Source of the DNA: an uncultured Verrucomicrobiales bacterium
Lineage (GTDB): Bacteria > Verrucomicrobiota > Verrucomicrobiia > Verrucomicrobiales > Akkermansiaceae
DNA length: 55,534 bases
Assembly: GCA_949373085.1 (NCBI GenBank)
Contig: CASICJ010000036.1
Coordinates: forward strand, 1 to 55,534
Direction: 5' to 3'
Positions within the stretch are counted from its first letter, which is position 1; every line of letters starts with the position of its first letter. Positions 27,946 to 55,392 of the stretch are shown one piece after another. The notes beneath the pieces were generated by a model. The model had not been told where the DNA came from and did no database searches. It was given only the letters and a program-made list of their open reading frames with translations. Made by a program: the position numbers and the translations under genes.

Positions 27946-29925
27946 GTGCTCGCTGTCAAAAACCTCCGCGTGGAATTCGGACCCCGTGTGATCTTCAAAG
28001 ACCTTACCTTTTCTATCGGAGAAAGGGAGCGAATCGCTTTCGCTGGCCACAATGGAGCCGGAAAATCTACCCTTATGAAATGCATCGGAGAAGTCTTAGA
28101 ACCCAACGCCGGCGAAATCACCAAACCAAAGCACCACCGAATCGGTTATCTTCCCCAGGAAGGGATCCATATTAAGGGCATCTCACTTTATGAGGAAGTC
28201 GAATCCGCCTTTGCCGAAACCAAGGCCATTCAGGAAGATATCGAGAGATGCTCCACCGAGCTCGAGAAGCTTGATCCTCGCTCGGCGCCCTTCTCCGATC
28301 TACTCGATAAGATTGGAGAACTAGAACTCCGGCTCGATGGCCATGATCCCTCACGTATGAGGCCCAAAATTCAAGCCGTTCTGACTGGTCTCGGTTTCAA
28401 GCACGATGACTTTGATCGCGACTGCGGTGAATTCTCTGGTGGCTGGCAAATGCGTATCGCCATGGCTAAGCTCTTCCTTGCCGAACCGGAAGTCCTTCTT
28501 CTCGACGAACCAACCAACCACCTCGACATTAAAGCTCAGCGCTTCATGGAGTCCTACCTCCACAGCTACAAGGGCGCAATCATCCTCATCTCTCACGACC
28601 GCTCCATGATGGATGGCCTCACCACCCGTACTATCGCCTTCCACCATGGCCGCGCCGAAGAGTTTACAGGTAACTACTCATCTTACGAAACTCAGCTCAA
28701 GGAGCGTCAGGACAATCTGCGCAAACAAAAGATCAATCAAGATCGCGAAATCGCCAAAACAGAACAATTCATCAACCGCTTCCGTGCCCAAGCCAACAAA
28801 GCATCCCAAGTCCAATCTCGCATTAAGCAGCTCGCTAAGATCAAGCGTATCGAGATCGATGCCGAAGACTCGGTAATGTCTTTCCGCTTTCCAGATCCTC
28901 CTGCCTCCACTCACCTTGTCGCTAAGCTCGAAAATGCCGCACAACAATATGGCGAACTCAACGTCTTCCGAGACCTTAATCTTGAGGTCACTCGCGCGGA
29001 GAAAATTGCCATTGTTGGCCCAAATGGCGCAGGGAAATCGACCTTTTGTCGTATGATCACTGGCGAGGAAGCACCCTTCACAGGCGACCAAAACCTTGGG
29101 CCCAAGACTCTCCCGTCCTTCTTCAATCAAAACCACGCTGACGAACTCGACCCCACCCTGACGGTTTTAGAAACAGTCGAGCGAATCCAAACACGTGGCT
29201 CTAACATGTCTGCTCGTGACGTTCTCGGCTGCTTCCTTTTTAAAGGTGACGACGTTTTCAAAAAAATCGGCATCCTTTCTGGAGGCGAACGTTCACGGGT
29301 CGCTCTGGTCCGCATGCTCGTTCGCCCCGCAAACTTCCTGATTCTCGACGAACCTACAAACCACCTCGACATGCAGTCGCAGGACATTCTGCAAAAGGCT
29401 CTTATCGATTACCCAGGCACTCTCCTCATCGTATCCCACAACCGAGATTTCCTCGATCCCATCGTTCAAAAAACAATGGAATTCCGCCAAGGTTACGACC
29501 CACGCATGTTTGCGGGAAATCTCACCTACTACCTCGATAAAATCGAGGCTGAGGAGAGCGGCATAACGACTCCCGTTGTAAACTCCTCTGCTAACCCATC
29601 TCACTCAACGCCAAACCAACCTCAACTTTCCTCAAAAGAGCGCCGTAAGCGTGATGCCTCTATCCGTGAAAGGCGCAACAAAGTTCTCAAGCCTCTGCAG
29701 AACGAATTCACCTCTGTCGAAAAAGCGATTAACGAACTCGAATCTGCGCAAGCAACGCTCACCACCCACCTTGAGTCACCTGAAGTCATGGGAGATCCTG
29801 AGAAGCTTCGCGAAACCACCAATGCCTACGAGTCCATTTCCCAAAAACTCGAGAACGCCTATTCAAAATGGGAAGATCTAAGCGCCCAGATTGAAAAACT
29901 TGAAGCAGAACTCGATTCTGCATGA
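27946..29925 (+). CDS. ABC-F family ATPase
   Basis: 659 residues from GTG 27946. It has two ABC ATPase domains with no membrane segments. Domain 1: GHNGAGKSTLMKC (Walker A), GEFSGGWQMRIAMAKLF (signature), VLLLDEPTNHLD (Walker B). An interdomain linker (NLRKQKINQDREIAKTEQ) follows. Domain 2: GPNGAGKSTFCRM, GILSGGERSRVALVRML and FLILDEPTNHLD. The C-terminal 110 residues are charged and helical (SKERRKRDASIRERRNK), as in Uup/YheS-type proteins. ABC-F proteins act on the ribosome E site. No antibiotic-resistance specificity can be inferred. It stands alone and ends 53 bp before a convergent gene. Confidence 0.92.
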   Translation: MLAVKNLRVEFGPRVIFKDLTFSIGERERIAFAGHNGAGKSTLMKCIGEVLEPNAGEITKPKHHRIGYLPQEGIHIKGISLYEEVESAFAETKAIQEDIERCSTELEKLDPRSAPFSDLLDKIGELELRLDGHDPSRMRPKIQAVLTGLGFKHDDFDRDCGEFSGGWQMRIAMAKLFLAEPEVLLLDEPTNHLDIKAQRFMESYLHSYKGAIILISHDRSMMDGLTTRTIAFHHGRAEEFTGNYSSYETQLKERQDNLRKQKINQDREIAKTEQFINRFRAQANKASQVQSRIKQLAKIKRIEIDAEDSVMSFRFPDPPASTHLVAKLENAAQQYGELNVFRDLNLEVTRAEKIAIVGPNGAGKSTFCRMITGEEAPFTGDQNLGPKTLPSFFNQNHADELDPTLTVLETVERIQTRGSNMSARDVLGCFLFKGDDVFKKIGILSGGERSRVALVRMLVRPANFLILDEPTNHLDMQSQDILQKALIDYPGTLLIVSHNRDFLDPIVQKTMEFRQGYDPRMFAGNLTYYLDKIEAEESGITTPVVNSSANPSHSTPNQPQLSSKERRKRDASIRERRNKVLKPLQNEFTSVEKAINELESAQATLTTHLESPEVMGDPEKLRETTNAYESISQKLENAYSKWEDLSAQIEKLEAELDSA

Positions 29926-38160: not shown

Positions 38161-39396
38161 TCACTTACCCTTCTTCAAATGTTTGGAAGCGAACTGAATG
38201 AACTTCTCCCAATCCCCCTCTTCAATCGAATGTCCGCCATTCCGAATGTGGTACCCGACTTCACCATCCATCATCGCTTTCCCAACCTCCGGCGATTTCT
38301 CACTTTCCATGCCTTTCTTACCAAGCAAGCGATAGACCTCACTCGCATGATAGGCAGATAAATATTCTCCCCGTCCATCAGCCCACGTGTCTTTCACACC
38401 ACTGTGCACGTAAACCGGGCGCGGTGCGATACACGCCAACAACATGTGCTGGTCCACCGGAAGATCATCTTCCTGCTCGACAAACTTCTGGGCATTGCGA
38501 CACAACCAGTACGGAAACCGAGTCACCATCTTCTTCAAGGTCTCACCTGATTTCCTCCTCCATAAGGCGGCCCCGGCGCACCCCGACTGAGACGAGATTG
38601 CCATTGCAAATCGCTCATCCTGAGCCGCCGTCCACAACGCCGTCTTTCCCATCTTAGAGTGCCCCATAATGGCCACCCGTTTGGCATCCACATCGGCATC
38701 GGTTTCCAAATAATCCAGCGCACGCATTCCACCCCAGGCACAAGCCGAAAGCACACCCCACTCATGAGCTTTCGGAAAACTCTGCCCCTCGGGATAAAAT
38801 AGCCGATGGATACTATCTCTAAATTCCACCTCGTTGTGCTTCACCAAATCCTCATGGTAAACCGCACAAAATGCGAAACCAGCATCCAGAATTTTTCCCA
38901 GCGGCCATCCATTTTTCAGTCGATCCCTCCTGAGGAATCCCACCTCAAAATCACCCGACCGTGTATTGTTAAAACTGTGCTTCATGATCACCGGTACTGG
39001 CTTCGTGACACCATTCGGAACAAAGAGCAAAAACCTCATCGTTTTCTCGCCCTTCTGAGTTTTGATTTGGATATCGATATCCTTCCGCGTTGCCTTCCCC
39101 CTCATAAAAGCCTCGTTTTTTTTCACCTCCCGAAAAGTAAGCTTCATCGGTGTTGAACGCTCTGGAACCCGTCCATAGACCAGATTACTGAAAAGTGACA
39201 TGATCTGAGGTCTTCTTAAGGTATGCCACTCCTCCACTGTCGTGATTCGCTTCCCCTCTGCCGTCACCAATAACTCGGGCAAATCATAAGCCGGAACCTT
39301 GGCCTCATCATAATTGACATCCTTGTCGCCTTCCTTCGCCTGGCGACCGAAATTCACTCCCATCATTACTAACATGAGAACCACTTGATATTTCAT
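38161..39396 (-). CDS. secreted CE15-like glucuronoyl esterase family protein
   Basis: 411 residues, N-terminus MKYQVVLMLVMMGVNFG. The hydrolase domain shows PVPVIMKHSFNNTRSGDFEV, GVLSACAWGGMRALDYLETD, VDAKRVAIMGHSKMGKTALW (nucleophile Ser in GHSKMG), FAMAISSQSGCAGAALWRRK and NGGHSIEEGDWEKFIQF (catalytic His). This set matches bacterial CE15 glucuronoyl esterases, which cleave ester bonds of glucuronic acid units in lignocellulose or other polysaccharides. Marine members act on algal material, and exact substrate is open. It is divergent from the multidomain gene at 39.5 kb. Confidence 0.85.
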   Translation of the reverse strand: MKYQVVLMLVMMGVNFGRQAKEGDKDVNYDEAKVPAYDLPELLVTAEGKRITTVEEWHTLRRPQIMSLFSNLVYGRVPERSTPMKLTFREVKKNEAFMRGKATRKDIDIQIKTQKGEKTMRFLLFVPNGVTKPVPVIMKHSFNNTRSGDFEVGFLRRDRLKNGWPLGKILDAGFAFCAVYHEDLVKHNEVEFRDSIHRLFYPEGQSFPKAHEWGVLSACAWGGMRALDYLETDADVDAKRVAIMGHSKMGKTALWTAAQDERFAMAISSQSGCAGAALWRRKSGETLKKMVTRFPYWLCRNAQKFVEQEDDLPVDQHMLLACIAPRPVYVHSGVKDTWADGRGEYLSAYHASEVYRLLGKKGMESEKSPEVGKAMMDGEVGYHIRNGGHSIEEGDWEKFIQFASKHLKKGK

Positions 39397-39484
39397 TGTC
39401 CCAATATGCGTTCCCTAACTGTCCCCCGTCAATCAGACAACCTCAACTTATGATTTTTTATCCAATCTCTAACTTCCACCTCTC

Positions 39485-42400
39485 ATGAAGCTTTTCCTCA
39501 CCCTAGCTCTTTTTTTCTCAATTCCTGCTCTTGCTCAGATCTCATATGAGGGCACGTCCGGCCCTGGAAAAGGAAAGCACATCGTCTTCATTGCCTCCGA
39601 TCACGAATACCGTGCCGAGGAAACCTGCCCCGCCCTTGCTCGAATCCTCACTAAATATCACGGCTTTAAAACCACTGTTCTTTTCGGAGTCAACGACAAG
39701 GGGGAAATTACCGCCGGGGCTTCCAACATCAAAGGCCTCGAGGTTCTTAAAGAGGCCGACCTCATGTTCATCTTCACACGCTTCCTCGATCTTCCTGACG
39801 AGCAAATGGTTCACATTGACGAATACCTCCAGCGCGGCGGCCCCGTCGTCGGACTCCGCACCTCTTCTCATGCCTTCAAGATCCCCAAAGGCCGAAAATA
39901 TTCCCACTACGATTTTCAATACAAAGGCAAGGACTTCGATCGCGGCTTTGGCCACCAAATTCTCGGTAACACTTGGGTCGGCCATTACGGACACAATCAC
40001 AAGCAATCCACCCGCCTTCAGATCACCTCAAAAAATAAGGACCACCTCATCCTCACTGGAGTCGGTAACAACGCTCATACGATTGCTGGGGCCTACACCG
40101 GCATACCTGATCAAACCTTCACCGTTCTCACCGAGTCCCAGCCCCTCAATGGCATGAACAAAGATTCTGCTGCCGATGAGACTAAAAAACCTTCACCTTC
40201 AACCTGGACCCGTCACTACACCAGCAAGAGCGGAAAGAAGGCACGCGTTTTCCACTCAACTCAGGGAGCTTCCCAAGATTTCCTGAACTCCAATTACCGC
40301 CGACTTGTCATCAATGGAACCTACTGGGCCATGGGTCTTGAAAAACAAATTAAAGCCGACTCGAGCGTCGATCTTGTGGGCTCATACAAGCCCACCGCCT
40401 TTCGAAATGGCGGCCACGTCCGTGGCCTCAAACCCGAAATTTACCGAGACATCAATTCCCCAGTCCCCGGAAAAGGCACTTCGGCTTCCACCAATGATCG
40501 CCGTGAAAAAAACGCAACCAAAGCAAAGGACGCAAAAAATTCAAAGACTGACCGTAAAGCGCCATCTAGAGATCCAGAGCTCACTAAATACTATATCAAT
40601 CGCAAAACCTCGCCCCGCCCGGAAAAAATCCAACCAGTCAAAACCGAGCTTCCTCTAAGAATCTCCCCCAGCTCTCGTATCACTCTTATCGGTAACCTTC
40701 TCCTTGATGCCGAACGCCGCTTCGGCCACCTCGAAACCCTCCTCCACCAGCACCATCCAACGCATAAGCTCACCATTCGCAACCTTGCCTGGCCAGCTGA
40801 TGAAGTCGATCTCATGCCTCGCCCAGATAACTTCGGTGACCTTGACCAACATCTCCACTACTTCAAAAGCGACCTCATCATTGCCGCCTACGGCTACAAT
40901 GAATCCTTCGGCGGAAAAGAAGGCCTCTCTGACTTCAAGAAACGCCTTGATCAATTTTTGACCCATCTCAAATCTCAAGCATACAACGGAAAAACCGCCC
41001 CCCAAATCATCCTTCTTTCTCCCATAGCCAGTGAGAACATCGCTGCACTTAATGCTGGTGATCGAAACAACGAAAACCTCGCACTTTACACCCAAGCTCT
41101 TGCCGAAGGAGCGAAGAAGCACTCCATCGGTTTCTGCAACGTCTTTGATGGCGCCAAGGCCCACATCATCGCCAGTAAAATCAATCAACGAACCATTGAT
41201 GGCCATCAAAACAACATCCATGGGCACCAACAATTCGCGAACATCGCCTTCAAGGCTCTCTTCGAAAAAGACCCCTCCGCTCTCAACGAAGACCTCCGGC
41301 AACTGGTCGTCGATAAAGCCACCCAATTTCACTACCGCTACCGCCCTCTCAATACCTTCTACTATACTGGGGGGCGCAACAAATCCTATGGCTACCTCGA
41401 TTTCCTTCCCGCCATGCGGAACTTCGATCTCATGGTCGCCAATCGCGACACTGCCATTCACAAAACCGTCGCCACCGGTAAACTCGTCAAACCGAATGAC
41501 TCCAATCTCCCAAAACTAGACGACGTCCTCCTGTCACGCGGAGCCAACAAGTTTCTTTCCCCGGCCGAAGAACTGAAGGCCTTCAAAATCGATCCACGTT
41601 TCGAGGTCAATTGCTTTGCCTCCGAAGAAGATTTCCCCGAGATGGCCTGCCCCATCCAAATGCGCTGGGATAAACATGGCCGTCTTTGGGTCTCCACCTC
41701 CGTCACCTACCCTCATGTTTATCCCGGCCAAAAACCCTGCGATAAAATTATCATTCTCGAGGACACCGATCAAGATGGCAAAGCCGACAAATGCACGACT
41801 TGGGCCGATAACCTTCACATCCCCCTCTCTTTTGTCCTTGATGGAAACGGTGGTGTTTTCTGCTCCGAAGAACCCCACCTCACCCATCTCACTGATACCA
41901 ACGGCGACGGTAAAATGGACCACCGTGAAATCGTCTTTACCGGCTTCGGGTGCGAGGATTCGCACCACGCCCTCCACGATTTCACCTGGACTCCCGGAGG
42001 AGACCTTCTCTTCCGCGAATCCATCTTCCACAACTCCCAAACCGAAACTGCTTACGGCCCTATCCGCGCCAAAAACTCCTCCTGGTTCCTCTACCACCCT
42101 TCCACAAAAAGACTCACCGCCTTCGGAGCCTACCCAAATACGAACCCCTGGGGGGTCACCTTCGACCCATACGGAAACCACGTCGCTTCTCACCCCGTCT
42201 TCGCCTCCACCTTCCACGCCACCAATCCCGATTATCCTAGCCAGCATCCCGGAGCCAGAGGCATGCAAGCCTACTCCGGAGTCTGTGGACAAGACTTCGT
42301 CTCCCACGACTTCTGGCCCAAGGAAATGCAAGGTGGCTTCATCAAGGTTCGCTACAAGCCAACCAACCGCGTCGAGTTCCACCACTGGAATGAAGAATCT

Positions 42401-43657
42401 GCCCACTTTGCCGAAAAGTATCAATTCGACCTCATCTTCTCCACCAACCTCTCCTTCATCCCAGTCGACTTCCGCTTCGGTCCGCGCGGGGCGGCCTATG
42501 TCTGTGATTGGTATAACCCAGTCAAAGGCCACGCTCAATACTCCCTTCGTGATCCCCGCCGCGACCGCAAATCGGGCCGTATCTGGCGTATTATTCCCAA
42601 GAAAGCCCAACTCGATTCCGCGCCAAAAATCGCCACAGCCTCCATCACCGAACTCCTCGACCATCTCAAGTCCCCCCACTACCGAACCCGCTACTGGGCA
42701 AAGCGTGAACTCCGGAGCAAGTCTCCTAAAGAAGTGCTCAGCCCGCTTTTGACTTGGACAAAAAAACAAAAGATCCCGCTGCATCTTCTCGAATCTCTCT
42801 GGCTTCATCAAGCCTTCGACCAGCCCAACGTAGAGGTTTTGGAAAAACTCATCCGCTCCGACAACCACCTCGTAGCCGCTTCCGCCTTCGGACCTCTCCG
42901 TTTCTGGGCTTCCAAGCTTCCACCCTCGAAATCACTCAGCCTTCTGAATTACGGAATTTCCCATCCTTCCCAACATGTCCGCCGCGAAGCTGTCCTCTGT
43001 GCTTCCTATCTAGTCCCTTCACACAGCCACCGGACGGATTCTTCAATCACCCCATCCTCAGTCATAAATACCCTTGCCCCGATATTCGATCAAGAAGCAG
43101 ACACCCACCTTGCCTACGCAATCAGCACCACTCTCAATTCCTCGGCTCTGAAACCTCACTGGCAGGATTCGCAATACGCCCCCACCATCACCAAGGCCCT
43201 CGCGGATTTCAAAAAATTAAACAGGCTTAAACCTGACACAAAAAACGCTAACGAAGCTTCTTTCGACGCCCAAAAGGGCCTTCAAACCATTGATATTTCC
43301 TGCATCCCCGAGCGACTCCTCTTCACCAAAGATAAGTTTAATGTGAAAGCAGGCAAACCGGTTCGTCTTCACTTCTCAAACCCGGACGTCACGGAGCACA
43401 ACCTGCTCATCCTCGACCAAGGTACCTCCATCCAAGAAATCGGTGAAGCCGCCAATCGTATGGCGGCCGATCCAGAAGCCGCGAAAAAGGGCTTTATCCC
43501 AAACGATAAACGTATCCTCCACGAAACTAAACTTCTTAAGAAAGATACGGTTCAAACCCTTCGCTTTATGGCTCCTCAGACGCCTGGGAAATATCCTTTT
43601 CTCTGCTCTTACCCCGGGCACTGGACCATCATGAAAGGTGTCATGATCGTGAGATAG
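39485..43657 (+). CDS. secreted multidomain protein: ThuA, SGNH hydrolase, Piru_Ver propeller, HEAT and cupredoxin
   Basis: 1,390 residues, signal peptide MKLFLTLALFFSIPALAQ. Domain order: ThuA-like (about 28-300, KHIVFIASDHEYRAEETCPA, QILGNTWVGHYGHNH); low-complexity linker (320-385); SGNH-hydrolase-like (390-610, ITLIGNLLLDAERRFGHLET, IIAAYGYNESFGGKEG); Piru_Ver membrane-bound dehydrogenase-type beta-propeller (about 690-1040, LWVSTSVTYPHVYPG, IPLSFVLDGNGGVFCSEE); HEAT-like helices (1060-1230); and a C-terminal cupredoxin with copper-ligand pattern in VTEHNLLIL and FLCSYPGHWTIMKG. The family often has a C-terminal haem c (CxxCH); here a copper domain replaces it. Probably a periplasmic redox or carbohydrate-oxidising protein (inference). 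Confidence 0.82.
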   Translation: MKLFLTLALFFSIPALAQISYEGTSGPGKGKHIVFIASDHEYRAEETCPALARILTKYHGFKTTVLFGVNDKGEITAGASNIKGLEVLKEADLMFIFTRFLDLPDEQMVHIDEYLQRGGPVVGLRTSSHAFKIPKGRKYSHYDFQYKGKDFDRGFGHQILGNTWVGHYGHNHKQSTRLQITSKNKDHLILTGVGNNAHTIAGAYTGIPDQTFTVLTESQPLNGMNKDSAADETKKPSPSTWTRHYTSKSGKKARVFHSTQGASQDFLNSNYRRLVINGTYWAMGLEKQIKADSSVDLVGSYKPTAFRNGGHVRGLKPEIYRDINSPVPGKGTSASTNDRREKNATKAKDAKNSKTDRKAPSRDPELTKYYINRKTSPRPEKIQPVKTELPLRISPSSRITLIGNLLLDAERRFGHLETLLHQHHPTHKLTIRNLAWPADEVDLMPRPDNFGDLDQHLHYFKSDLIIAAYGYNESFGGKEGLSDFKKRLDQFLTHLKSQAYNGKTAPQIILLSPIASENIAALNAGDRNNENLALYTQALAEGAKKHSIGFCNVFDGAKAHIIASKINQRTIDGHQNNIHGHQQFANIAFKALFEKDPSALNEDLRQLVVDKATQFHYRYRPLNTFYYTGGRNKSYGYLDFLPAMRNFDLMVANRDTAIHKTVATGKLVKPNDSNLPKLDDVLLSRGANKFLSPAEELKAFKIDPRFEVNCFASEEDFPEMACPIQMRWDKHGRLWVSTSVTYPHVYPGQKPCDKIIILEDTDQDGKADKCTTWADNLHIPLSFVLDGNGGVFCSEEPHLTHLTDTNGDGKMDHREIVFTGFGCEDSHHALHDFTWTPGGDLLFRESIFHNSQTETAYGPIRAKNSSWFLYHPSTKRLTAFGAYPNTNPWGVTFDPYGNHVASHPVFASTFHATNPDYPSQHPGARGMQAYSGVCGQDFVSHDFWPKEMQGGFIKVRYKPTNRVEFHHWNEESAHFAEKYQFDLIFSTNLSFIPVDFRFGPRGAAYVCDWYNPVKGHAQYSLRDPRRDRKSGRIWRIIPKKAQLDSAPKIATASITELLDHLKSPHYRTRYWAKRELRSKSPKEVLSPLLTWTKKQKIPLHLLESLWLHQAFDQPNVEVLEKLIRSDNHLVAASAFGPLRFWASKLPPSKSLSLLNYGISHPSQHVRREAVLCASYLVPSHSHRTDSSITPSSVINTLAPIFDQEADTHLAYAISTTLNSSALKPHWQDSQYAPTITKALADFKKLNRLKPDTKNANEASFDAQKGLQTIDISCIPERLLFTKDKFNVKAGKPVRLHFSNPDVTEHNLLILDQGTSIQEIGEAANRMAADPEAAKKGFIPNDKRILHETKLLKKDTVQTLRFMAPQTPGKYPFLCSYPGHWTIMKGVMIVR

Positions 43658-43669
43658 CCGCAGACCAGA

Positions 43670-45220
43670 TCACCTCAATTCCTTCCGGGCCCACGCCATC
43701 GTCTTCTTCGTCATTGGGTCTCCGGAGGGTTCCTTTCCCAAAATTTTTCGGGTTAACTCTGCCTGAAAGAGATAAGCAAAAATTTCATTGGGGTGATCGT
43801 ATCCGGCACGGATTGGGAACTGCTTTTTCCAGTCTCTCATAAGATTTGGATTAATAACTTCAGGTTTCTTTTCTCCTTTTCTCCAAATTACCCGATAGGT
43901 CTCACCCGTTTTTTGGAGAGGCATGATCGCCTCTCGGAAGGAAGCTGGCATCCTTGCCGGATCATCCTTCTCATCGAGGATTGTCTTTAACCAATAATGA
44001 TTACCCTCGTAATCCACCACCCAACGATTTCCTTCCAGTCCATCGGGATTCTGGATTTCGTTGCGCCCCACCCACTCATCGTGCTCCACCCTTCCATCGA
44101 TTAATCCGTAAGCCCCAATATAAAGCCCAGAAAACTTTCGAGGGAAGCACCGCTGAAGCACATGGATTTGTTCGTGAACAATAATCGTTCCTGCCCCCGC
44201 GAGCGCCTTCTTACTTTTGCCGTGCCGGCGATAGTCTTTCACCATGCGATTAAGCGCGCCCTCAGCAATTACCACCGACAAGCCACGAGTATGGCAAAAC
44301 CCTCCACAATGATCGCTCTTCACCTTAACAACCTGCCATGGTTGGTTGGCTAGAAGGGGAAAATCTTCCACCAATAGCTTGCGATACTCCCCGACCATCC
44401 AGAGAACAACTTCCCTTTCTTCCCGAGTAAAATCCATCACAGCATTTCCGAACCTCTTTCGCGCTTCTTTTTCCAAAGCTTCACCTTTCAGAGCTTTCCC
44501 CACCACTTTCCCGGTCATCGCCTCAACTTCGCGACGATTGAGTTCCGTGTAATAAGCCTCAAAATTCTCCCCAAGATAAGCTCGCCGTCCTTCGTCTACC
44601 TCAAGGCACTTTACTGTCTCGCGAACCAAGGGGCTTTTTAAAATAGTCGCAGCTTGATCCCTTGTGATTCCATCTTCCCAAATACGATCCAAAAAATCAC
44701 CATCACCCATCACATTAGGAATATCTGACGGCACCTCGGCATCATCCACAGTGTGAGACAGTCCCAAATTGTGGGCCACCTCGTGCACCACCACAAAGGC
44801 ATCTTGCCCAAGCGGAGGATTATCACCCTGCGCAATAAAAGTGACCCATCCGGGCTCCTGTCCAAGACCATTTGGAGCCGATCTTCCATTAATCTTGCGT
44901 GCGAAAAATATATTTGCAATTCGCCGAGGTTGCCGAAAAACGCCCTCTTCCATCGCCGCCTTCACGATCACGTCTACATCAATCTCACCATCCCTAAACT
45001 CGCGGCGCGACCATTTCACTGGCTCAAGAATTTGAAAATCGAGATCCCATCGACGAAATGGCAAATCAAGCAACTCCTCCTGCAAGTTGGCCTTGGCCGC
45101 ACCATCGCCCGCATCGTTAGTCAATATAATCGGACGAAGTAATATGGTGTGCCCAGTTAGTTCATGACTAGAGGCCGAATGAACTGACAAAAGCCCGGCC
45201 AAGAACAACTCCCGGATCAT
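43670..45220 (-). CDS. secreted metalloprotease-like protein with two HExxH motifs
   Basis: 516 residues from ATG 45220 (MIRELFLAGLLSVHSASSHE); the frame continues to 45313, but a signal peptide begins here and the ATG overlaps the upstream stop. An N-terminal metzincin-type motif HEVAHNLGLSH is at residues 146-156 (His, Glu, His plus the third His). A second HExxH, HEQIHVLQRCFP, is at 349-360, followed by an acidic region. It is probably a zinc protease with two separate HExxH centres, but family names escape me. It is translationally coupled (ATGA overlap) to the DUF3500 gene. Confidence 0.65.
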   Translation of the reverse strand: MIRELFLAGLLSVHSASSHELTGHTILLRPIILTNDAGDGAAKANLQEELLDLPFRRWDLDFQILEPVKWSRREFRDGEIDVDVIVKAAMEEGVFRQPRRIANIFFARKINGRSAPNGLGQEPGWVTFIAQGDNPPLGQDAFVVVHEVAHNLGLSHTVDDAEVPSDIPNVMGDGDFLDRIWEDGITRDQAATILKSPLVRETVKCLEVDEGRRAYLGENFEAYYTELNRREVEAMTGKVVGKALKGEALEKEARKRFGNAVMDFTREEREVVLWMVGEYRKLLVEDFPLLANQPWQVVKVKSDHCGGFCHTRGLSVVIAEGALNRMVKDYRRHGKSKKALAGAGTIIVHEQIHVLQRCFPRKFSGLYIGAYGLIDGRVEHDEWVGRNEIQNPDGLEGNRWVVDYEGNHYWLKTILDEKDDPARMPASFREAIMPLQKTGETYRVIWRKGEKKPEVINPNLMRDWKKQFPIRAGYDHPNEIFAYLFQAELTRKILGKEPSGDPMTKKTMAWARKELR

Positions 45221-46206
45221 ACCGACTTCTTGATATGCATCCAGGCATGAACATGCGGTTTGCCGCGGAAGTAACAAACCATGTTCGGTCCCTCCAACTG
45301 CCAGACATCCCAAATCTCATCCTCCCCGATATTTTCCTCTTTGTAGAAAGCCATATGAATATTGTCCAAGCCTCCAGCTTCGACCAACTTTAGCGCTTCC
45401 TTGGAATCCTTTTCGCGGAAAGGTGCCATGAGATCGCCAAGCACTTTACGAACATGCCCTTTCTGGTCCCCGCTCATATCGCCAACGCGAATACCATCGA
45501 GTCCCTTTTTCTTTCCAGTCAACTTCACGGTAGCCCGGCCTTTTTCACCGCGACTCTTTCCACAGAGCGCTGATTGCCGCTGCTTGCCATCAAGCATTTG
45601 ATAAACCTCATTCGCACGAACCGCCTGATACCAATAAGCATTATCCTTATGATCCGACTTCTCATTAAAACTATCGGCCGCATGTCCGTAAAACAAGGGT
45701 CCGCCAAAAGCAGTTCCTTCATTCGAGTCTCCATCACAACGACGCGTGCAATGACGCCCAGTCAAAACAAACTCAAATTTCCCCGTCCCTGGAATCCCAA
45801 AGATTGCCACCGATGACCCACCCTCAAAACCATCAAGACCACTATCCCATTCCACCTGGTCGTAAACTTTTTCAGCATACTCCTCACTATGAATCCCCAT
45901 GAAGATCTCCTTGATCATCGCCTGTTGATCTTTGGTGTAATGCTCAACGAGGATCTTCGTGATCAGCCAGTTATTTTCAATCTTCAAGCGAAGCTTGTGA
46001 TCATAAGGAAAACACATCGCCTTCTTCTGCTCCTCGCTGAGAGAATCATAAAAGGTCTTCACCAAAGTCTCTGCCTCTGGCTTCTTTTTCTCTTTTTCAG
46101 CCCCGATAATAGGAATCGCTCCAAATCCCAGTCCTGCCGCGGCGACAGACGAATGACGAAGAAAAGAACGGCGGTCAACAGAGAGTGGATGGTTTTCTGG
46201 CTTCAT
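45217..46206 (-). CDS. DUF3500 family Tat-exported protein
   Basis: 329 residues from ATG 46206 (MKPENHPLSVDRRSFLRHSS); the frame reaches 46248, but the twin-arginine signal RRSFLRHSSVAAAGLGFG fits the later start. DUF3500 features: YDSLSEEQKKAMCFPYDH, GLDGFEGGSSVAIFGIPGTG, FEFVLTGRHCTRRCDGD, GPLFYGHAADSFNEK and DVWQLEGPNMVCYFRG. The function of the family is not established. Its stop overlaps the start of the downstream metalloprotease gene, so they form an operon. Confidence 0.88.
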   Translation of the reverse strand: MKPENHPLSVDRRSFLRHSSVAAAGLGFGAIPIIGAEKEKKKPEAETLVKTFYDSLSEEQKKAMCFPYDHKLRLKIENNWLITKILVEHYTKDQQAMIKEIFMGIHSEEYAEKVYDQVEWDSGLDGFEGGSSVAIFGIPGTGKFEFVLTGRHCTRRCDGDSNEGTAFGGPLFYGHAADSFNEKSDHKDNAYWYQAVRANEVYQMLDGKQRQSALCGKSRGEKGRATVKLTGKKKGLDGIRVGDMSGDQKGHVRKVLGDLMAPFREKDSKEALKLVEAGGLDNIHMAFYKEENIGEDEIWDVWQLEGPNMVCYFRGKPHVHAWMHIKKSV

Positions 46207-46590
46207 GAATTTTCGTGAGTTATCTAAATATGTTAACACCTCAGTCATACTCTTCGACCATTTTTTATTTCACTCTTGGCGATTTCCTTTTCATGCGCTG
46301 GCCGCTCGGCACACTCTGGGAAGCGAAAGGAGCGTGAGCCATTCGATCTCTCTTCAATCCTATTGTCAGAGAAAGACTCGTCTGATTCACTTACCCTGAG
46401 TGCAAAATTCTCGCTCTTCGGGCCATTAGATCGATGCTTCATCCTTTTTCTTCAAAAACCTAAGATCTTAATTACTGGCGTAATAGCTTCCAAAAAAAAG
46501 TCCTTTTTCCTCCCCTTTACTTGGGATCTCCTCCATTATCTTAGAGCCCACATTCGGATAGTAGCTACCAATAGTCTTATTAATTTTAGC

Positions 46591-46863: not shown

Positions 46864-49216
46864 ATGAAACTACTACTCTTCCTTTGCATTATTCTTGCTT
46901 CATGCAGGGAAACCCAAAAAAGCCCAAGCCCTCCTTTACAGGATCAGACTGGAGCCTCGCCAGACGAAATTGTAACTCGCCTAGTTCACACCGAGGAAAT
47001 GGTTCTCAAGCTCACTCCTCATCTCAAAAATCTCGCTGAAGATCTCCGCTCAAAAAACGTTCCCGCTGAACGAATCCCACCTGCATGGCGCCCATATCTC
47101 GCTCCAAATTACACATGGCTCAATGCGTCTTTTGGTATTCTCTCTGGAAGCTATGAAGAAAAAAAATTCATCACAAAAACTAAGTTTGAAGGACTCCTCA
47201 AAAACGAAGATGGCTCTCTTGTTGGAATCCAAGCCAAACAAGACCTCACCTGGGTTTCTCCCAAAGAATCCCCATCACTCATCAACTGGTCCCAACTCGA
47301 CTTCCACTCTTTGGCTTCTCCGCAAACCCTTTTTCAAGATGTCACAAACCAGGCTATTCCCTCCTCCTATTCCCGCGACGAAGCTCAACGCTCTAAGCAT
47401 TACGAAATCACCGAACAAGCCCTCGCTGAAAAAAAACTGATTCTTCCAAAACGAGAATACGCGGGTGTCCCAGACATGGAAAGTGCTCTCCAGTATCCCT
47501 CTGTTAGCGTTGTCGATTACGACTCTGACGGACACGATGATCTCTTAATCACAGCCCGATACCTCGAGCCACAACTCTTTCGCAATCTTGGTAACGGAAC
47601 TATTTAGAGACACAACTCTCGAATCTGGACTCACTCCTGGCTACTGTGTTAATTTCATCCTATTTGCCGACTTTGATAACGATGGCGACCCTGATGCTCT
47701 TGTTTGTCGCTCTCTTGAACCGACGCTGTATTTTCAAAACAGCGGGGGCCGCTTTGAAAATGTCACCTCACGCCTCTCCGACCTCGGTAAGCAATTTTTC
47801 GTCGTTTCTGCCTGTGCCACTGATGTCAATCGTGACGGCCTTCTCGATGTTTATCTCTCCACCTACACTCCCGGCACTGACGTCAACCCCTCGTGGATGG
47901 ATAATTACCTCCCAACTGCCGATAAAGCGCATCTCAATAAACTCTCCCAAAGCTCACACCCTTATTTCGATGATAGAGGTGCCGCGAATATCCTCCTAAT
48001 GAACCGTGGAAATGGTCGACTCGAACGAGCGGGCGGAAACGTGATCAAACTTTGGCGAAAAAGCTATCAACCCACATGGGCCGATTTTGACAATGATGGC
48101 GATGACGATCTCTACGTCTGCAACGACTTCTCACCCGACACCTACCTCCGAAACGACACGCCGAAAGGAGTCTCAGCGAATCCCGTCTTCGACGGAAGCC
48201 TTTACGCCGAGAACTTTCCCGGACGGAGAGATGGCCTTCGGCATGGGCGCCTCACTTCGGAGACTACGATCAACGATGGCGATCTCGACCTCTTCGTCTC
48301 CAACATGTATTCCAAAGCCGGCAATCGGATCATCGACAGCTCGTCGGCGAGGTCGACCCCCGCATCAAGGTTTCCGCTGCGCGAGGCAACTTCCTGTATC
48401 GCGAACGACGACGGAAGTTTTCGGCAAGACGCCGCACCCGACGCTCCCGAAACCCGCACCGGCTGGTCATTTGGCGGCCAGTTCGCCGACTTCAACAACG
48501 ACGGCCATCCTCGATCTCTACGTTCCCAGCGGCTACTACACCGCGCCAAAAGCAGTAGCCACCGAGCTCGACTTGTGAAGTTGCTTCTGGAGCACGGTCG
48601 TGCTCGCCGACCCCACACAAGTCCGAAGGATATTTCGTCAGTCCGAGCGCCTGGCAAGTCACCCCTCCTAAACTTCCAGCTCCGCGTCGAACAAGACAAC
48701 CCCGGCGGGCCCCGCATACCGGAGCAACTCCCTCAGCGGCAACGAGCGAAATCGCCTCCTCATCGCTCGGCCCCGGTGGCTTCACCGACCACTCCCTCAT
48801 CAGCGGCATCGACTGCCCGCGAGGACGCACGCTCCTTCGCGCTCTTCGACTACGACAACGATGGCTGGCTCGATATTGCTCTTGCTAGCACTTCATTCCC
48901 ACGCCTCCGTGTTTTTCGCAATCGCTTCTCAGAAATTGGCAATCACGAAAAAGGTCGTCTTGTGCGCCTCAATCTCATCGGCACAACAAGTAACAGGGAT
49001 GCCGCTGGCGCTGTCGTTATCGCCCACACCTCAAAAACCAAACGCGCTTTTCGAAAAAATCTAGGCCAAGGCCTCTCTTCCCAAAATTCACCCTCGATCT
49101 TTATCACTGTCCCACCCAAGGACAGTCTTGAGAACCTCACCGTCCATTGGCCGTCAGGAAAAATTACCAATTATAAACCAACCGGATCGGAAACGGTCAT
49201 TTCGATTACCGAGTAA
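46864..49216 (+). CDS. UnbV/ASPIC (CRTAC1-like) FG-GAP lipoprotein with in-frame TGA, candidate selenoprotein; frameshifted
   Basis: Signal and lipobox MKLLLFLCIILASCRETQ. VCBS/FG-GAP repeats: VVDYDSDGHDDLLIT, ILFADFDNDGDPDALVCR, CATDVNRDGLLDVYLSTY, WADFDNDGDDDLYVCNDF and LDLFVSNMYSKAGNRI. The C-terminal UnbV/ASPIC domain includes SFALFDYDNDGWLDIALAST and VRLNLIGTTSNRDAAGAVV. One indel near 47590-47602 and several at 48,220-48,840 break the frame. In the correct frame, YYTAPKAVATELDL is followed by TGA 48576-48578, then SCFWSTVVLADP. The paralogue at 49.2-52.1 kb has TGA at the same place. A perfect GGUC hairpin follows 17 nt later in DNA. I infer Sec at about residue 571. No thioredoxin tail here. 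Calcium-binding propeller, role unknown. Confidence 0.8.
48590..48605 (+). promoter_or_regulatory. bacterial SECIS element of the first UnbV gene
   Basis: GAGCAC-GGTC-GTGCTC: a perfect 6-bp stem closing a GGUC apical loop. The loop starts exactly 17 nt after the TGA at 48576-48578. E. coli fdhF has a GGUC loop 18 nt after its UGA. Six Watson-Crick pairs, no mismatches. Confidence 0.8.
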
Positions 49217-52118
49217 ATGACCTTAAATCCGATAACGTTGGAGTGCCTTTCATCACCTTCAAAATTCTTCCTTCTTTGTCCAAAATAAAACTCGAAGGTA
49301 ACGGGGTCTCACCGAAATTCTTCTCCAAAAGAGCCTCCACTTCACCCCTCTTATTTACTTCACGTAAAATCTTATAAGGTGGTTTGAAGGCTACCTCAAA
49401 CTTTCCCCACTCCTCCTCACCCTCCTTTTCATCTATTGGAAAGGCGTAGAGTCCCAGCCCCTCCACCTTCTTCGAAAGCCATTTTAAATGCTCTATTTCC
49501 CCTTGGCAAATTGGGCACCAAGTTGCCAAGGTTACCACCACATTCAATTCCTGTTGGACTGTTAAATCTAAACGATCCAGCTTTGGCGAAATAACTCTTT
49601 CGGGAATAACCGATCTCGGAACTTTAAGAACTTCGACCTCATCGATTCTCTCGTCAATCGTTACCAAATCTCCCGCTTTTACGATTCCCACTTCACTCTT
49701 TTTTCCCGAAGGCCAAAGCACCGTCACCTCATCCGCGTGGTCCGAATTTCCAATACCAATTAGTAAGGTCTCACTATTTTGCGCTGCAAAACCATCACCT
49801 GCCCGCAGTTCACGACGCAGGGTCTTTTCGCCAATCCTGACCAACACATGAGCTCCAATTCCATCCCTAGGACTCCATTCCTCAGACACCTGAGCCGTTA
49901 AATTACCTCCAATCAACTTTACCCGAATTGCGTGGCCTAGGTCTTCTATTTCATTTCTGAACAGCTGCAACTGTGGCTTGTTCGTATTTGTCAAAATGAC
50001 GTCGTTCCGCCCGTCCCGATCAAAGTCAAAAAACGCAAATGCTCTCCCATCTGCTATACTGTCTAAGCCAGTCACCCCAGAAATGTCCTTGAATGCCTCC
50101 CCCCCTTGATTCCAGAAAACACTGTTACTTTCTTTCCCACTAAATGAGTGACTCCTCAGGACTGGATTACCATCAAGCTTCTTACTTGTGTCAATTACCC
50201 CCGGCATCACCCCATACTGCCTTACATCAACTCCCTCTTCGGAAAACTGCTTACTGAGATTGCTATCCGAACGCACGACCGCGCGCCACAAACTACTTCA
50301 CAAATCAACTTCTGTTTCAGTCCCTGAAGGCGGCGTATAGAGACCATTCGCAACATAAAGGTCTAAAAAACCATCATTATCGAAGTCAGTAAACTGCCCA
50401 CCCCACGACCATCCAGCCTGAGATACCTCACAATTAACGGGTTGGAACTTGGCCCCTGTATTACGCAACAACTTATTTCCTTTGACCCCTTCATACATTC
50501 GCTCCTCTAGACCATCGAACATTTTGGTAATTCGACTCCCAGCCTTGGAATACATGTAAGTGAAGTAAGGATCGAGAAACCCATCATTGTTATAGTCTCC
50601 CAAGGATACCCCCATTCCAAAACCCTGTAATTCATTTCCTGCCACTTCGTTCGTAACATCTACCAAACGTCCTCCCTCGTTTCGAAAAACATAATCGGGC
50701 GCATAATCATTAGCCACAAATAAATCCGGATCGCCATCATTGTCATAGTCTGACCACGTGCCCTGGAAACTCGACAACCATAAGTCTGCTCCTCCAGCTT
50801 TTAGTGATCTTGAAAATCGCCCATTCCCCTGATTGATCAGCAGAACATTTGGTGGCCCGGTTAAACGAAAAACCGGATGATCCTGCCCTCTCCTCCGTTT
50901 CCATTCGACTTGTTCCTCCGGTGTCAAAAATTCGGTTGCTAAAATATTTCGAGGCCGAGAAATCGGCAATCGATATGTCGCCAAATATAGATCCAATAAT
51001 CCATCTCCATTCACGTCAGCTGATGACATTGCTGAAGTCCAATAAGGCATTCCTCCAAGCACATTCTCCTCCGTTCGATCAACGAACACTCCACCTACAT
51101 TTATGAAAAACCGCCCTCGCTCCAAACTTCTCCCGATGAAGACGTCTTTGTCTCCGTCATTATCAAAATCCGCAAAAAGAGAACAATTACACACTCCATC
51201 CAGGTCCAAGCCTACTTTTTGCGCAACTTCCTCAAAGGTTCCATCACCTCGATTCCTCCACAACTGGTTGCGACCCCACCGAGCCGTCACATAAAAATCA
51301 TCCCACCCATCCTCATCGACATCTACAACTGATACCGAAGTGTGCTGATCCAACGAATCCCAAGTTGCGATATAATTCCAGTAGTGTCGCGGGTATGAAA
51401 ATTTCGTTCCACCTGTAAAAAACACATCTCGAACGTACTGGTCATGGACCGAATTCTGCGCTTTCTCCAAATCCTCGGGTGACCTTAGAACTCGATCTAA
51501 AACATCGGAGAAAAACGGTTTTTCACAAACCATCTCTTTCAACTCCAGATTTTCAATTAGACGGATTAGCCACTCTCCCTCTCTCTTGACCCACCAAATC
51601 CCCAATTTACCATTCCATGCCCCCAACTTTCCTTCAGCTGTAGTACCGCGCAAAGTCACTTTTAGCTTCGTATGAAAATCTCCCACTTTACCAAAAGCTC
51701 CCTCCAAAGTCCCAAAACTAATTTTTTCTAATCTCCACACCCTTTCAAATAAGGCCTTCCAAATTTCACGTTCCCCTCCCAGTTCCAGCTCTTCTTTCCC
51801 AAGAGAAAACTCACCCATTTCGACCCCGGGGAACTCCCCTTGTGAAAATTTCAAATCGACAATCGCGTTAAACCTAGCTCCCTCGATAAATAGCTTTTCA
51901 TTCCAGCCAACTTTCATATTTGCTACGGCCCGCTTTAACCGATTCACGGGTCCAACCAACTCCGCTATCACTTCCTCTGTCTTCACCATCTTAGCATAAG
52001 CCTCTTCGGCTGAAATCTGCTGATCCCTTGTCTCTTGTTCACTCTCTGGTCCACTCCTCTCACCACACGAAACAATAAACGCGAGACACGCTGCCCAAAA
52101 TAGCCGGAAAATCCTCAT
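49206..52118 (-). CDS. UnbV/ASPIC lipoprotein with in-frame TGA (candidate selenoprotein) and C-terminal thioredoxin domain
   Basis: One 970-codon frame from ATG 52118 to TAA 49206, broken only by TGA 50300-50298 (codon 607). Lipobox in MRIFRLFWAACLAFIVSCGE. FG-GAP/VCBS repeats: VVDVDEDGWDDFYVTARWG, LFADFDNDGDKDVFIGR, SADVNGDGLLDLYLATY, WSDYDNDGDPDLFVANDY and FTDFDNDGFLDLYVANGLY. Then SGTETEVDL, TGA, SSLWRAVVRSDSNL, and the UnbV domain (IRVKLIGGN, RAGDGFAAQNSETLLIG). The end is a TlpA-like thioredoxin domain with VVTLATWCPICQGEIEH (Cys868, Cys871). A GGUC hairpin follows the TGA by 17 nt. Sec607 plus a CxxC domain suggests a redox function in the periplasm (inference). Confidence 0.85.
50270..50287 (-). 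promoter_or_regulatory. bacterial SECIS element of the second UnbV gene
   Basis: In the mRNA, GGCGCGC-GGUC-GUGCGUU gives a seven-pair stem (four Watson-Crick, three G-U) and a GGUC apical loop, starting 17 nt after the UGA. Compared with the first UnbV gene, one pair is A-U there and C-G here, and two more are changed with pairing kept, so the stem is under selection. Confidence 0.8.
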
Positions 52119-52466: not shown

Positions 52467-53213
52467 ATGAGAACACATTTCATTCTAACTTCTGCGTTCG
52501 TAGTCGGGATAGCCAATGGCGCTACACTCGCTCATCGATATTCCTTCGATACTGATACGACAGACTCGGTCGGTGGCAACACCGGTATTCTCGCAGGCGG
52601 ATCGACTGTCTCGTCCGGAAAACTGAGTCTAACAGGTCTTGGTGCTAGCACCGCGGCCAACCGAATGACGTTCACCAATCCCGTTGATATTGGTGGAAAC
52701 TTCGGAACAACCGGCGTGACCGTCGAGACGTGGTATACTGATTCTGGAACCGGTACTTGGGGTAAGCTTTTCCAATTCGGTAATAGTGCCGCAGGACAAG
52801 AACTTGCCTTTACCTTTACTCGAGGAAATGGACAACAAACCGGCGTCGATCGAGATGGAGCAAAACTCTTCGGAGAACAAATCTCACAAAACGCTCAACA
52901 CCATCTTGCTATCACCATATCCCCAGACGGCAATCTCAACACTTGGATCGACGGAAACCAAAAACTCACTGATGTCGACACCAACGATCTCTCCTCTATC
53001 AATACTACCTTCGAAGCGATCGGTGCCACAAGCTGGGGTGACCCTGGTATGAACGGCTCGGTCGACGAATTCCGAATCTGGTCTGGCGAACTCAGTGCGG
53101 CCGAAGTTGGAACTAACTTTGCATCTGGACCTAATAATTTAGTGCCAGAACCCAGTGGGATTCTTCTTACCCTCGCCGGAGGCCTTCTCTTCTTTCGTCG
53201 TCGACGGGCCTAA
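52467..53213 (+). CDS. LamG-domain PEP-CTERM protein
   Basis: 248 residues. Signal peptide MRTHFILTSAFVVGIANGAT, a LamG/concanavalin-like domain (residues 20-220: TLAHRYSFDTDTTDSVGGNT, TWYTDSGTGTWGKLFQFGNS, WIDGNQKLTDVDTN, GSVDEFRIWSGELSAAEV), and a PEP-CTERM sorting tag VPEPSGILLTLAGGLLFFRR followed by Arg. The tag means cleavage and surface attachment or export by exosortase, typical of exopolysaccharide-producing bacteria. The domain is closely repeated in the next gene. It ends with a strong terminator. Ligand unknown. Confidence 0.88.
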   Translation: MRTHFILTSAFVVGIANGATLAHRYSFDTDTTDSVGGNTGILAGGSTVSSGKLSLTGLGASTAANRMTFTNPVDIGGNFGTTGVTVETWYTDSGTGTWGKLFQFGNSAAGQELAFTFTRGNGQQTGVDRDGAKLFGEQISQNAQHHLAITISPDGNLNTWIDGNQKLTDVDTNDLSSINTTFEAIGATSWGDPGMNGSVDEFRIWSGELSAAEVGTNFASGPNNLVPEPSGILLTLAGGLLFFRRRRA

Positions 53214-54070
53214 AAGAGGATATCACCTTCAATTTTTTCCAAGGCCCGCCTCCTTCTTGGAGCGGGCCTTTTACACAAAATCTTTCATGTTAGCGCAAAT
53301 TAGCCCCAACCATTAATTTACAAATAGCTTTCATCTTTGAATCTCGAATTGGGGAAGCTTATTTTTACAAACACCCCATTAACCCCAAAACAATTTTTGT
53401 TCTCATTCTATGAAAAACATCACCCAACTCTTCAGTTTTATCCTTTGCTTAGCGCCTTTTCTGCCCACGCAAGGTGCCACTCTTGCCCACCGCTATTCGT
53501 TCGATACTGATGCGACTGACTCGGTCGGTGGCAACACCGGCATTCTCGAAGGCGGAGCGACCATTTCCTCTGGACAACTAAGTCTCACAGGTCTGGGGTC
53601 ATCTATTGATGCTAACCGTATGACCTTCACCAATCCCGTCGATATCGGCGGAAACTTCGGGGCTACTGGCGTGACCATCGAAACATGGTATACCGATACA
53701 GGCACCGGCACCTGGGGCAAGCTCTTCCAATTTGGTAATAACGCCGCTGGACAAGAACTCGCTTTCACACATACCCGAGCGAATGGACAACAAACCGGAG
53801 TCGACCGTGATGGTGCCCAGCTCATAGGAGAGCAGGTCAATCAAAACGAAGAGCACCACCTCGTAATCACCGTCTCACCTGACGGCAATCTCAACACCTG
53901 GATAGACGGCGTCCAAAAACTCAGCGACCTCGACACCAACGACCTCGCCAACGTTAACACTGAGTTTGAAGCCATCGGCGCCACTAACTGGGGTGACCCG
54001 GGAATGACCGGATCCGTCAACGAATTCCGTATCTATGAAGGCGAACTCACCCCTATCGAAGTCGCCGCTA
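52514..54070 (+). repeat. tandemly duplicated LamG coding block
   Basis: The DNA of the first LamG domain at about 52,520-53,075 is repeated at about 53,475-54,025 with long identical stretches (for example GACTCGGTCGGTGGCAACAC in both) and only scattered substitutions. A more diverged third copy is at about 54,490-55,075, inside the second gene. This indicates recent gene duplication followed by domain duplication. Confidence 0.75.
53241..53272 (+). terminator. strong intrinsic terminator after the first LamG gene
   Basis: AAGGCCCGC-N12-GCGGGCCTT followed by TT: a 9-bp GC-rich stem, 28 bp after the stop. The adjoining AAAGG/CCTTTT bases give a U-tract on the plus strand. Confidence 0.85.
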
Positions 54071-55392
54071 GCACCGAAGCCGGACCCGAGGAGCTCTTTG
54101 TCGTCTCCGATTCCGATGGCGATGGCCTCCCCGATACCTGGGAAAGAAAATGGTTCGGTGAGAATAATCTCTCCCAAGGTGCTAACGATGATCCCGACTC
54201 AGACAATCTCACGAACCTAGAAGAATTTACCTTCAACATTAATCTTAACCCAAACAAAGCAGATACCGACGAGGATGACCTAAACGATGGTCGTGAAATA
54301 AATGAAGAAAAGACAGACCCTCTGTTGAAAGACTCAGATAACGACTCACTCACCGATGGTGATGAAATCTTAGTTCATCTTACTAACCCACTTAATAAGG
54401 ATTCCGATGGCGACTTTTATTTTGATAACGTTGAAATCAAGAACAACTCTGACCCCAACGATGCCAATGACCCGAGTCCAGCTACTCCGACTTTAGCTCA
54501 CCGATGGTCCTTTAATACTGGGGCAGAACTTACCGATTCAGTCGGTGGAAATACTGGAATCCTTCGTGAAACAGCGTCCGTATCCGACAATCAACTACAA
54601 CTCGATGGCTTCGGCACAGGACCTGCTGCATCTAGCATGGGATTTACCTCCCCGGTCGACCTCGGTTCCAACTTCGGCGGCACTGGTTTTACGATTGAGA
54701 CCTGGTATACAGATACTGGAACAGGGACCTGGGGTAAACTCTTCACCTTCGGCACCGACGCTGTGGGCCAGGAAATTGCCTGGACAAACGAAAGAGGTGG
54801 TGAAGATCTCGCTCCCGGACTCGATAGAAACGGTGCCAAAGAAATCTCATCAATCCCTTTTGGCTCTGGTGGTCGCCTTTCTCTCGATGAAGAACACCAC
54901 CTCGTTGTCAGTGTTGAACCTGACGGCACAACTAATCTTTGGGTCGACGGCACGAAAGAGATAAGCGAAGTGCCGACCAACCCAGTGAGTAATATCGTCA
55001 CTAATACGGAATCGATCGGCTCAACCGCTTGGGGTGATCCCGGCCACTTCGGCAGCGTCAATGAATTTCGAATTTGGGAAGGCGCGCTGACCGAGGATAA
55101 TGTCACTGTTAACTTAGCCGCTGGTCCTGACTTCCTGCCGGGTGAAAAGGAATTCGCGATCACGAGCATCACGAGAAATCCAAGCAATAATTCCGTGATC
55201 ATTACCTTCAATTCTATAGTCGGTCGGAAATACCGTATTGACCGATCCCCCGAACTCCTTTCTGCCGACTCGACTCTTTGGCTAGACATTGACGATGAAT
55301 TCGTTGCAACCTCCGACCTCTCAACCTTTACCGATCCCACGGCCCTAGGAAAGCGACTTTTCTACCGTATCAAGGATATCACGAATCAATAG
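53410..55392 (+). CDS. two-LamG-domain protein with thrombospondin-3-like linker
   Basis: 660 residues, signal peptide MKNITQLFSFILCLAPFLPT. First LamG domain (about 25-220) is nearly the same as in the preceding gene. A linker with Ca-binding acidic repeats (VSDSDGDGLPDTWERKWFG, DDPDSDNLTNLEEFTF, KADTDEDDLNDGREIN, LKDSDNDSLTDGDEIL, NKDSDGDFYFDNVEIKNN) spans about 228-360. A second LamG domain (about 360-570: TLAHRWSFNTGAELTDSVGG) follows, then a C-terminal beta domain (FAITSITRNPSNNSVIITFN). There is no PEP-CTERM tag. Probably surface glycan-binding (inference). Confidence 0.85.
   Translation: MKNITQLFSFILCLAPFLPTQGATLAHRYSFDTDATDSVGGNTGILEGGATISSGQLSLTGLGSSIDANRMTFTNPVDIGGNFGATGVTIETWYTDTGTGTWGKLFQFGNNAAGQELAFTHTRANGQQTGVDRDGAQLIGEQVNQNEEHHLVITVSPDGNLNTWIDGVQKLSDLDTNDLANVNTEFEAIGATNWGDPGMTGSVNEFRIYEGELTPIEVAASTEAGPEELFVVSDSDGDGLPDTWERKWFGENNLSQGANDDPDSDNLTNLEEFTFNINLNPNKADTDEDDLNDGREINEEKTDPLLKDSDNDSLTDGDEILVHLTNPLNKDSDGDFYFDNVEIKNNSDPNDANDPSPATPTLAHRWSFNTGAELTDSVGGNTGILRETASVSDNQLQLDGFGTGPAASSMGFTSPVDLGSNFGGTGFTIETWYTDTGTGTWGKLFTFGTDAVGQEIAWTNERGGEDLAPGLDRNGAKEISSIPFGSGGRLSLDEEHHLVVSVEPDGTTNLWVDGTKEISEVPTNPVSNIVTNTESIGSTAWGDPGHFGSVNEFRIWEGALTEDNVTVNLAAGPDFLPGEKEFAITSITRNPSNNSVIITFNSIVGRKYRIDRSPELLSADSTLWLDIDDEFVATSDLSTFTDPTALGKRLFYRIKDITNQ

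Follow-up and report, generated by a model that had tools for sequence, protein, structure and literature searches.

A probable selenoprotein family of CRTAC1-like proteins with an in-frame UGA in three bacterial phyla

The stretch of DNA analyzed here (the window: 55,534 nucleotides of contig CASICJ010000036.1, from an uncultured Verrucomicrobiales bacterium) carries two convergent genes for CRTAC1-like proteins, each interrupted by an in-frame TGA within the same motif. Judging from the sequences, these genes very probably belong to a family of CRTAC1-like proteins that decode this UGA as selenocysteine (Sec). A new selenoprotein family had already been proposed in a preliminary description of the window, and this reading now accounts best for the data because a hairpin resembling a selenocysteine insertion sequence (SECIS) follows the TGA, the Sec machinery is present, a sister clade has Cys at the same place, and no such family is described in the literature checked. 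Genomes and loci are referred to by G and L numbers where they have to be told apart.

The in-frame TGA, the family and the selenocysteine machinery

When its TGA is taken as a residue, the minus-strand gene (49206–52118) forms a single frame of 970 codons followed by a stop, which bears out the earlier statement that it reads without frameshift through TGA 50300–50298. This codon, number 607, lies in the context ETEVDL-U-SSLWRAVV; it is the only internal stop of the gene and a predicted selenocysteine, and the same motif surrounds the TGA in the relatives read. The FG-GAP repeats and the UnbV_ASPIC domain were both above the Pfam cut-offs (142 and 53.7 bits against 26.9 and 23.4), the former making up a beta-propeller region at about residues 260–722 (49953–51341) and the latter occupying residues 753–818 (49665–49862; PF07593, 1.9e-14), downstream of the TGA. 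The protein ends in a thioredoxin-like domain of the ResA/TlpA type with a WCPIC motif (49215–49529), where ResA structures match residues 864 to 967 or 968. The NCBIfam dsbE and ResA models stayed below their curated cut-offs (28.1 against 123.15 and 25 against 170 bits); the domain resembles these subfamilies, yet it is not filed as a member. Purifying selection was seen on both sides of the TGA, the ratio of nonsynonymous to synonymous substitution rates (dN/dS) being 0.15–0.16 downstream and 0.09–0.13 upstream of it, as computed with the two of six orthologs that were close enough. The low value past the TGA indicates that the frame beyond it is under selection at the protein level and, since the TGA motif also recurs across the family, a genuine stop with a second gene behind it was rejected.

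The convergent paralogue on the plus strand (46864–49216) has its TGA at 48576–48578, in the matching motif ATELDL-U-SCFWSTVV. This copy is frameshifted in the assembly: it is divided into the open reading frames (ORFs) 46864–47607 and 47588–49216, and the tblastn segments fall in frames 1, 2, and 1. One frame change lies near 47600 and the other in the interval from about 48260 to 48820; they reflect an assembly error or early decay. Because of them, only the neighborhood of the TGA can be read safely in this gene. Of the earlier claim of two proteins with a TGA at the same position, the two TGAs and their matching motif are real, whereas the open frame of the plus-strand copy is broken in this assembly. 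In the loci L018–L024, the copy that corresponds to it was open on both sides of the TGA in seven out of seven, within the flank examined. FG-GAP repeats and UnbV_ASPIC were found in both copies of the window by Pfam, and the thioredoxin-like domain, looked for with NCBIfam and structure matches, was found in the minus-strand protein alone, at its end. Among the matches listed, a convergent pair also occurs in G004, G006, G011, G016, G020, G023, G025, and G026, with a tandem pair instead in G068.

The read-through protein was searched over 97 genomes, the window's own included, and matched in 38 of them at E 1e-30. Every listed row spanning residue 607 has a TGA, and three stop-free rows do not extend to this residue; additional stops were seen in a few rows (three TGA and one TAA in G066, a single TAG in rows of G002, G004, and G006). 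A pattern made from the motif matched 37 of the 97 genomes; G026 had 16 matches and the window's own genome 11. When reversed as a control, the pattern matched 10 genomes, once each, so that single matches of the motif pattern are unsafe. Pattern matches in G031, G061, G081, and G084, which lack selA, were taken as chance because no family protein was matched there at E 1e-30. G010 and G046 showed pattern matches and weaker protein matches and no listed row, and are not counted among the 31 genomes with a TGA copy.

The motif scan of named genomes yielded at least 108 stretches, and 80 loci were examined: 41 from Verrucomicrobiota, 24 from Planctomycetota, 13 from Acidobacteriota, and two with no phylum in the title. 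They comprise 83 sites. In 79 of these, the open frame contains an FG-GAP-like motif before the TGA; in the remaining four, it extends over no more than 97 codons upstream. In 19 matching genomes of other phyla with Sec machinery, 49 of 57 family rows carried a TGA, seven were stop-free, and one had only a TAG; in G383, a TGA was present in 14 of 15 rows. The CRTAC1-like family with a TGA after Asp-Leu spans Verrucomicrobiota, Planctomycetota, and Acidobacteriota, and likely reaches up to about 16 copies in one genome. The two proteins first described are not alone: they belong to a family that extends over three phyla and whose motif pattern matches up to 16 times in one genome. Its members combine FG-GAP repeats with UnbV_ASPIC and frequently carry a ResA-like domain as well, and a CxxC motif was present in 60 of 93 complete ORFs. 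Very divergent paralogues were also met by way of the Planctomycetota loci, with the TGA contexts DDC-U-GEFF (L213), DDL-U-MDF (L225), and DG-U-TCLW (L226), so the family is wider than the motif used. The loci L116 and L124, titled Akkermansia muciniphila, hold clear TGA members; the species name of these metagenome bins looks doubtful.

The preliminary description had named the sel genes as a check, and in the window's genome (81% complete) selA, selB, and tRNA-Sec (anticodon TCA) were all above cut-offs, as was a partial selD match (model positions 82–310 of 311). selA was found in 53 of the 97 genomes. Among the matches listed, it was present in all 31 genomes with a TGA copy, 28 of which also had selB above cut-off, and none of the 44 genomes without selA had a TGA copy; three of the latter (G086, G089, and G094) gave weaker family matches, all stop-free. 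The hypergeometric probability of the association between selA and the TGA, 2e-11, assumes independent genomes, which they are not. Scores of tRNA-Sec near the cut-off overlap with those of tRNA-Ser, and the tRNA-Sec count was left out of the association. For the other two phyla, 28 loci were chosen out of 37, and 23 of their 28 genomes had selA. Of the 21 relatives in which SelD was matched, 19 have a SelD whose own frame runs through one TGA; SelD proteins with Sec are a known family.

The hairpin after the TGA and the decoding of the codon

In bacteria, the SECIS is a hairpin immediately downstream of the UGA, with G and U in its loop. A hairpin of this kind is predicted for the minus-strand gene (50270–50287), with a stem of 7 bp and a GGUC loop from 17 nt after the TGA, and for the plus-strand paralogue (48590–48605), where it reads GAGCAC-GGUC-GUGCUC. 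Over 128 sites, two registers were observed, a GGUC tetraloop in 52 and a GGUCG pentaloop in 69, with other loops in seven. The six pairs adjoining the loop were standard in 43 to 52 of the 52 and in 66 to 69 of the 69 sites, and compensating changes in the stem were seen across sites. In 2000 shuffles, the observed count of full five-pair stems was never reached; the sites are related to each other and the shuffles ignore this relatedness, so neither the shuffle nor the binomial values are probabilities.

Codon counts over these 128 sites are biased: 78 of them came from loci fetched with GGTC in the search pattern, and a Trp codon is required by the filter that selects sites. Because of the GGTC in the fetching pattern, the hairpin test was run again with 60 sites from a protein search, 10 of which lie in genomes reached through the GGTC pattern. 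The loop of the best hairpin contained GGTC in 50 of the 60 sites, against four of 1200 upstream positions in the same genes, and GT in 58. The distant paralogues L213 and L225 keep the GGUC loop on unrelated stems, the loop of L226 being CGUGUC, and no such hairpin was found when the Sec-less paralogues L220, L222, and L223 were folded.

Several observations weigh against Sec decoding. The two hairpins of the window fold no better than shuffled sequences (z -0.94 on the minus and 0.08 on the plus strand), Rfam gave no match at either of them, and the best loop lacked GGUC in 10 of the 60 protein-search sites. selB was under the cut-off in G005, G008, and G015 (65–88% complete), and 22 of the 53 relatives with selA had no TGA copy among the matches listed, two of which (G010 and G046) have pattern matches. 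A selA match was also missing from five of the 28 genomes of the other two phyla, perhaps because the assemblies are incomplete.

Were TGA read genome-wide as Trp or another ordinary amino acid, the frame would run on through it, as it does; such a code change would not confine one TGA per gene to one motif in most rows, the remaining Trp codons of the minus-strand gene are all TGG, and tRNA-Sec, selA, and selB are present. Moreover, other long ORFs of the window end at TGA, at 29923 (+) and 43672 (-), in agreement with the earlier observation that TGA serves there as an ordinary stop and that recoding to Trp is unlikely. We therefore rejected this explanation as very improbable. Pseudogenes or sequencing errors are hardly credible as the source of the codon and were likewise rejected: the frameshifts of the plus-strand copy and the further stops in a few related rows would fit them, but the same TGA recurs in many assemblies and paralogues, and dN/dS is low on both sides of it.

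Residues at the Sec position in relatives and a possible role

The residue that replaces Sec in relatives was predicted beforehand to be probably Cys. For the window protein, 49 of the best 120 of 7974 matches end directly before the UGA and one elsewhere before it, and the 70 with a letter at this column have Glu (68), Gly (1), or Asp (1). With a larger form of the protein (best 120 of 7991 matches), 93 of the 96 homologs tried were readable by the motif and showed Asn (77), Ala (6), Ser (4), Glu (3), Leu (1), Gly (1), and Asp (1). Among the stop-free rows from genomes of other phyla with Sec machinery, the column holds Glu in L220, Ala in L222, and Asn in L223. A more distant homolog with DYCTKFWC at this place was found in G074, G086, G089, and G092, which have no pattern match; of the 6475 matches to this homolog, the 120 listed, a sister clade, all have Cys at the column, and 114 of them a second Cys five residues on. 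The other Cys residues conserved in the clade are absent from 102 aligned Sec forms. The prediction holds, then, for the listed members of a distant sister clade, but not for the nearest relatives, which mostly have Glu, Asn, Ala, or Ser. In one row of 120 (P0213, 35% identity), the column shows Cys; this row lacks the motif and was taken as misaligned. Searched at E 1e-100, the Glu form P0079 matched one of 288 genomes of the phylum, the window's own, perhaps because this draw, as shown, is rich in one genus.

In a tree of 58 rows, for which the Sec column was masked and the Cys clade served as outgroup, the Glu forms branch from within the short Sec forms, and those with Asn, Ala, or Ser share one clade with the large Sec forms (support 90). 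All Sec forms as one clade were rejected by the approximately unbiased (AU) test on these rows (p 1.6e-58). The outline was the same in a first tree of 101 rows; both trees come from quick searches, and the outgroup sits on a long branch. This topology suggests that the clade had Sec from early on and that lineages or paralogues afterwards exchanged it for Glu, Asn, Ala, or Ser, which seems likelier than two gains of Sec, although the order is not proven. On balance, we favor the view of a selenoprotein family outside the thioredoxin fold, found in three phyla and with up to about a dozen or more paralogues in one genome, in which Sec was lost more than once to Glu, Asn, Ala, or Ser and not to Cys. 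If true, such losses would be a sign of a job of Sec that thiols were not chosen to take over.

In the mechanism that we propose, the UGA after Asp-Leu would be decoded by SelB and tRNA-Sec via the GGUC-loop hairpin within a few codons downstream. Modeling predicts a CRTAC1-like fold in which Sec would stand where a helix begins between strands of the propeller, ahead of UnbV_ASPIC in the sequence. The protein is probably exported, as a likely lipoprotein signal peptide (MRIFRLFWAACLAFIVSC; 52065–52118, minus strand) was read by eye in the translation. Sec might then act as an exposed selenol in extracytoplasmic redox chemistry, and might be reduced by the CxxC domain of the protein itself where present and elsewhere by other thiol proteins. 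This redox role is a guess that we hold tentatively, because Cys was found at the column in none of the 70 and none of the 93 nearest listed Sec-less homologs and because the propeller and UnbV region of the Sec forms has no conserved Cys column (best 54%). The CxxC motif, furthermore, was undetected in 33 of the 93 complete ORFs.

Two other functions can be imagined for the residue. Sec might be a metal-ion ligand in the propeller, replaceable by Glu or Asn in Sec-less relatives, but Ala, Gly, and Leu are also found at the column and make this proposal somewhat unlikely. Alternatively, the UGA might be a programmed regulatory site at which Sec insertion, depending on selenium, decides whether a short protein that stops before residue 607 or the full-length one is made, with the residue itself doing little. 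That the column tolerates Glu, Asn, Ala, Ser, Gly, Asp, and Leu in relatives would suit a switch; the persistence of the TGA across three phyla and in as many as 16 pattern matches in one genome, and the Cys fixed among the listed members of the sister clade, argue that a switch is unlikely.

Neighboring genes and relation to known systems

Beside the convergent pair, the window holds two adjoining genes with laminin-G-like lectin domains (52467–55392), one of them also with bacterial TSP3 repeats. In the region 38161–46248 are genes for a glucuronyl-esterase-like protein, a DUF3500 protein, and a protein of 1390 aa with DUF7133 and a weak cupredoxin match.

If the Sec reading is true, many predicted proteins of these phyla are annotated as fragments, like the listed matches that end directly before the UGA, and selenium would be used more widely in Verrucomicrobiota, Planctomycetota, and Acidobacteriota than is known so far. 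The bacterial CRTAC1 family would gain a chemical handle. According to the deep-Sep paper, it now seems that a Cys homolog exists for every known selenoprotein (PMC12013277); here, Cys occurs in a distant clade, while the nearest relatives mostly have Glu or Asn. The family would test this working rule, which lies behind the deep-Sep finder, and would tend to escape finders built on Cys homologs. Table 1 of a 2026 review (119 families and subfamilies; PMC13188914), the text of which describes most characterized selenoproteins as having a thioredoxin-like fold, names no FG-GAP, UnbV, or CRTAC1 family. Neither CRTAC nor ASPIC occurs in the main texts of PMC12013277, PMC9312934, and PMC4807772, the last on planctomycete selenoproteins, the supplementary candidate lists of PMC4807772 and PMC12013277 being outside this scope, and the text seen of PMC3174227 mentions ASPIC/UnbV and not selenocysteine. 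Nothing joining selenoprotein with UnbV or selenocysteine with FG-GAP was found in a literature search that excluded subscription papers and preprints.

The nearest known family is CRTAC1, or UnbV_ASPIC with FG-GAP (PF07593, PF13517; murine CRTAC1, 9etn). The proteins described here differ from it in the in-frame UGA and the SECIS-like hairpin, with Cys in the Sec-less sister clade, and, towards the C-terminus, in a thioredoxin-like domain, joined in large forms by TPR-like repeats (below the NCBIfam cut-off); no NCBIfam model was above cut-off in the family proteins scanned. Aldos-2-ulose dehydratase (4a7y, 4a7k) shares the fold at 12% identity, which shows no function. The C-terminal WCxxC domain is like the thiol-disulfide oxidoreductases ResA, TlpA, and DsbE, with ResA structures matching residues 864–967; unlike them, it is one domain of a larger protein and lies below the NCBIfam cut-offs, and its motif has Cys, not Sec. 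With the UGA, the hairpin directly downstream, and the sel genes, the family resembles the known prokaryotic selenoproteins.
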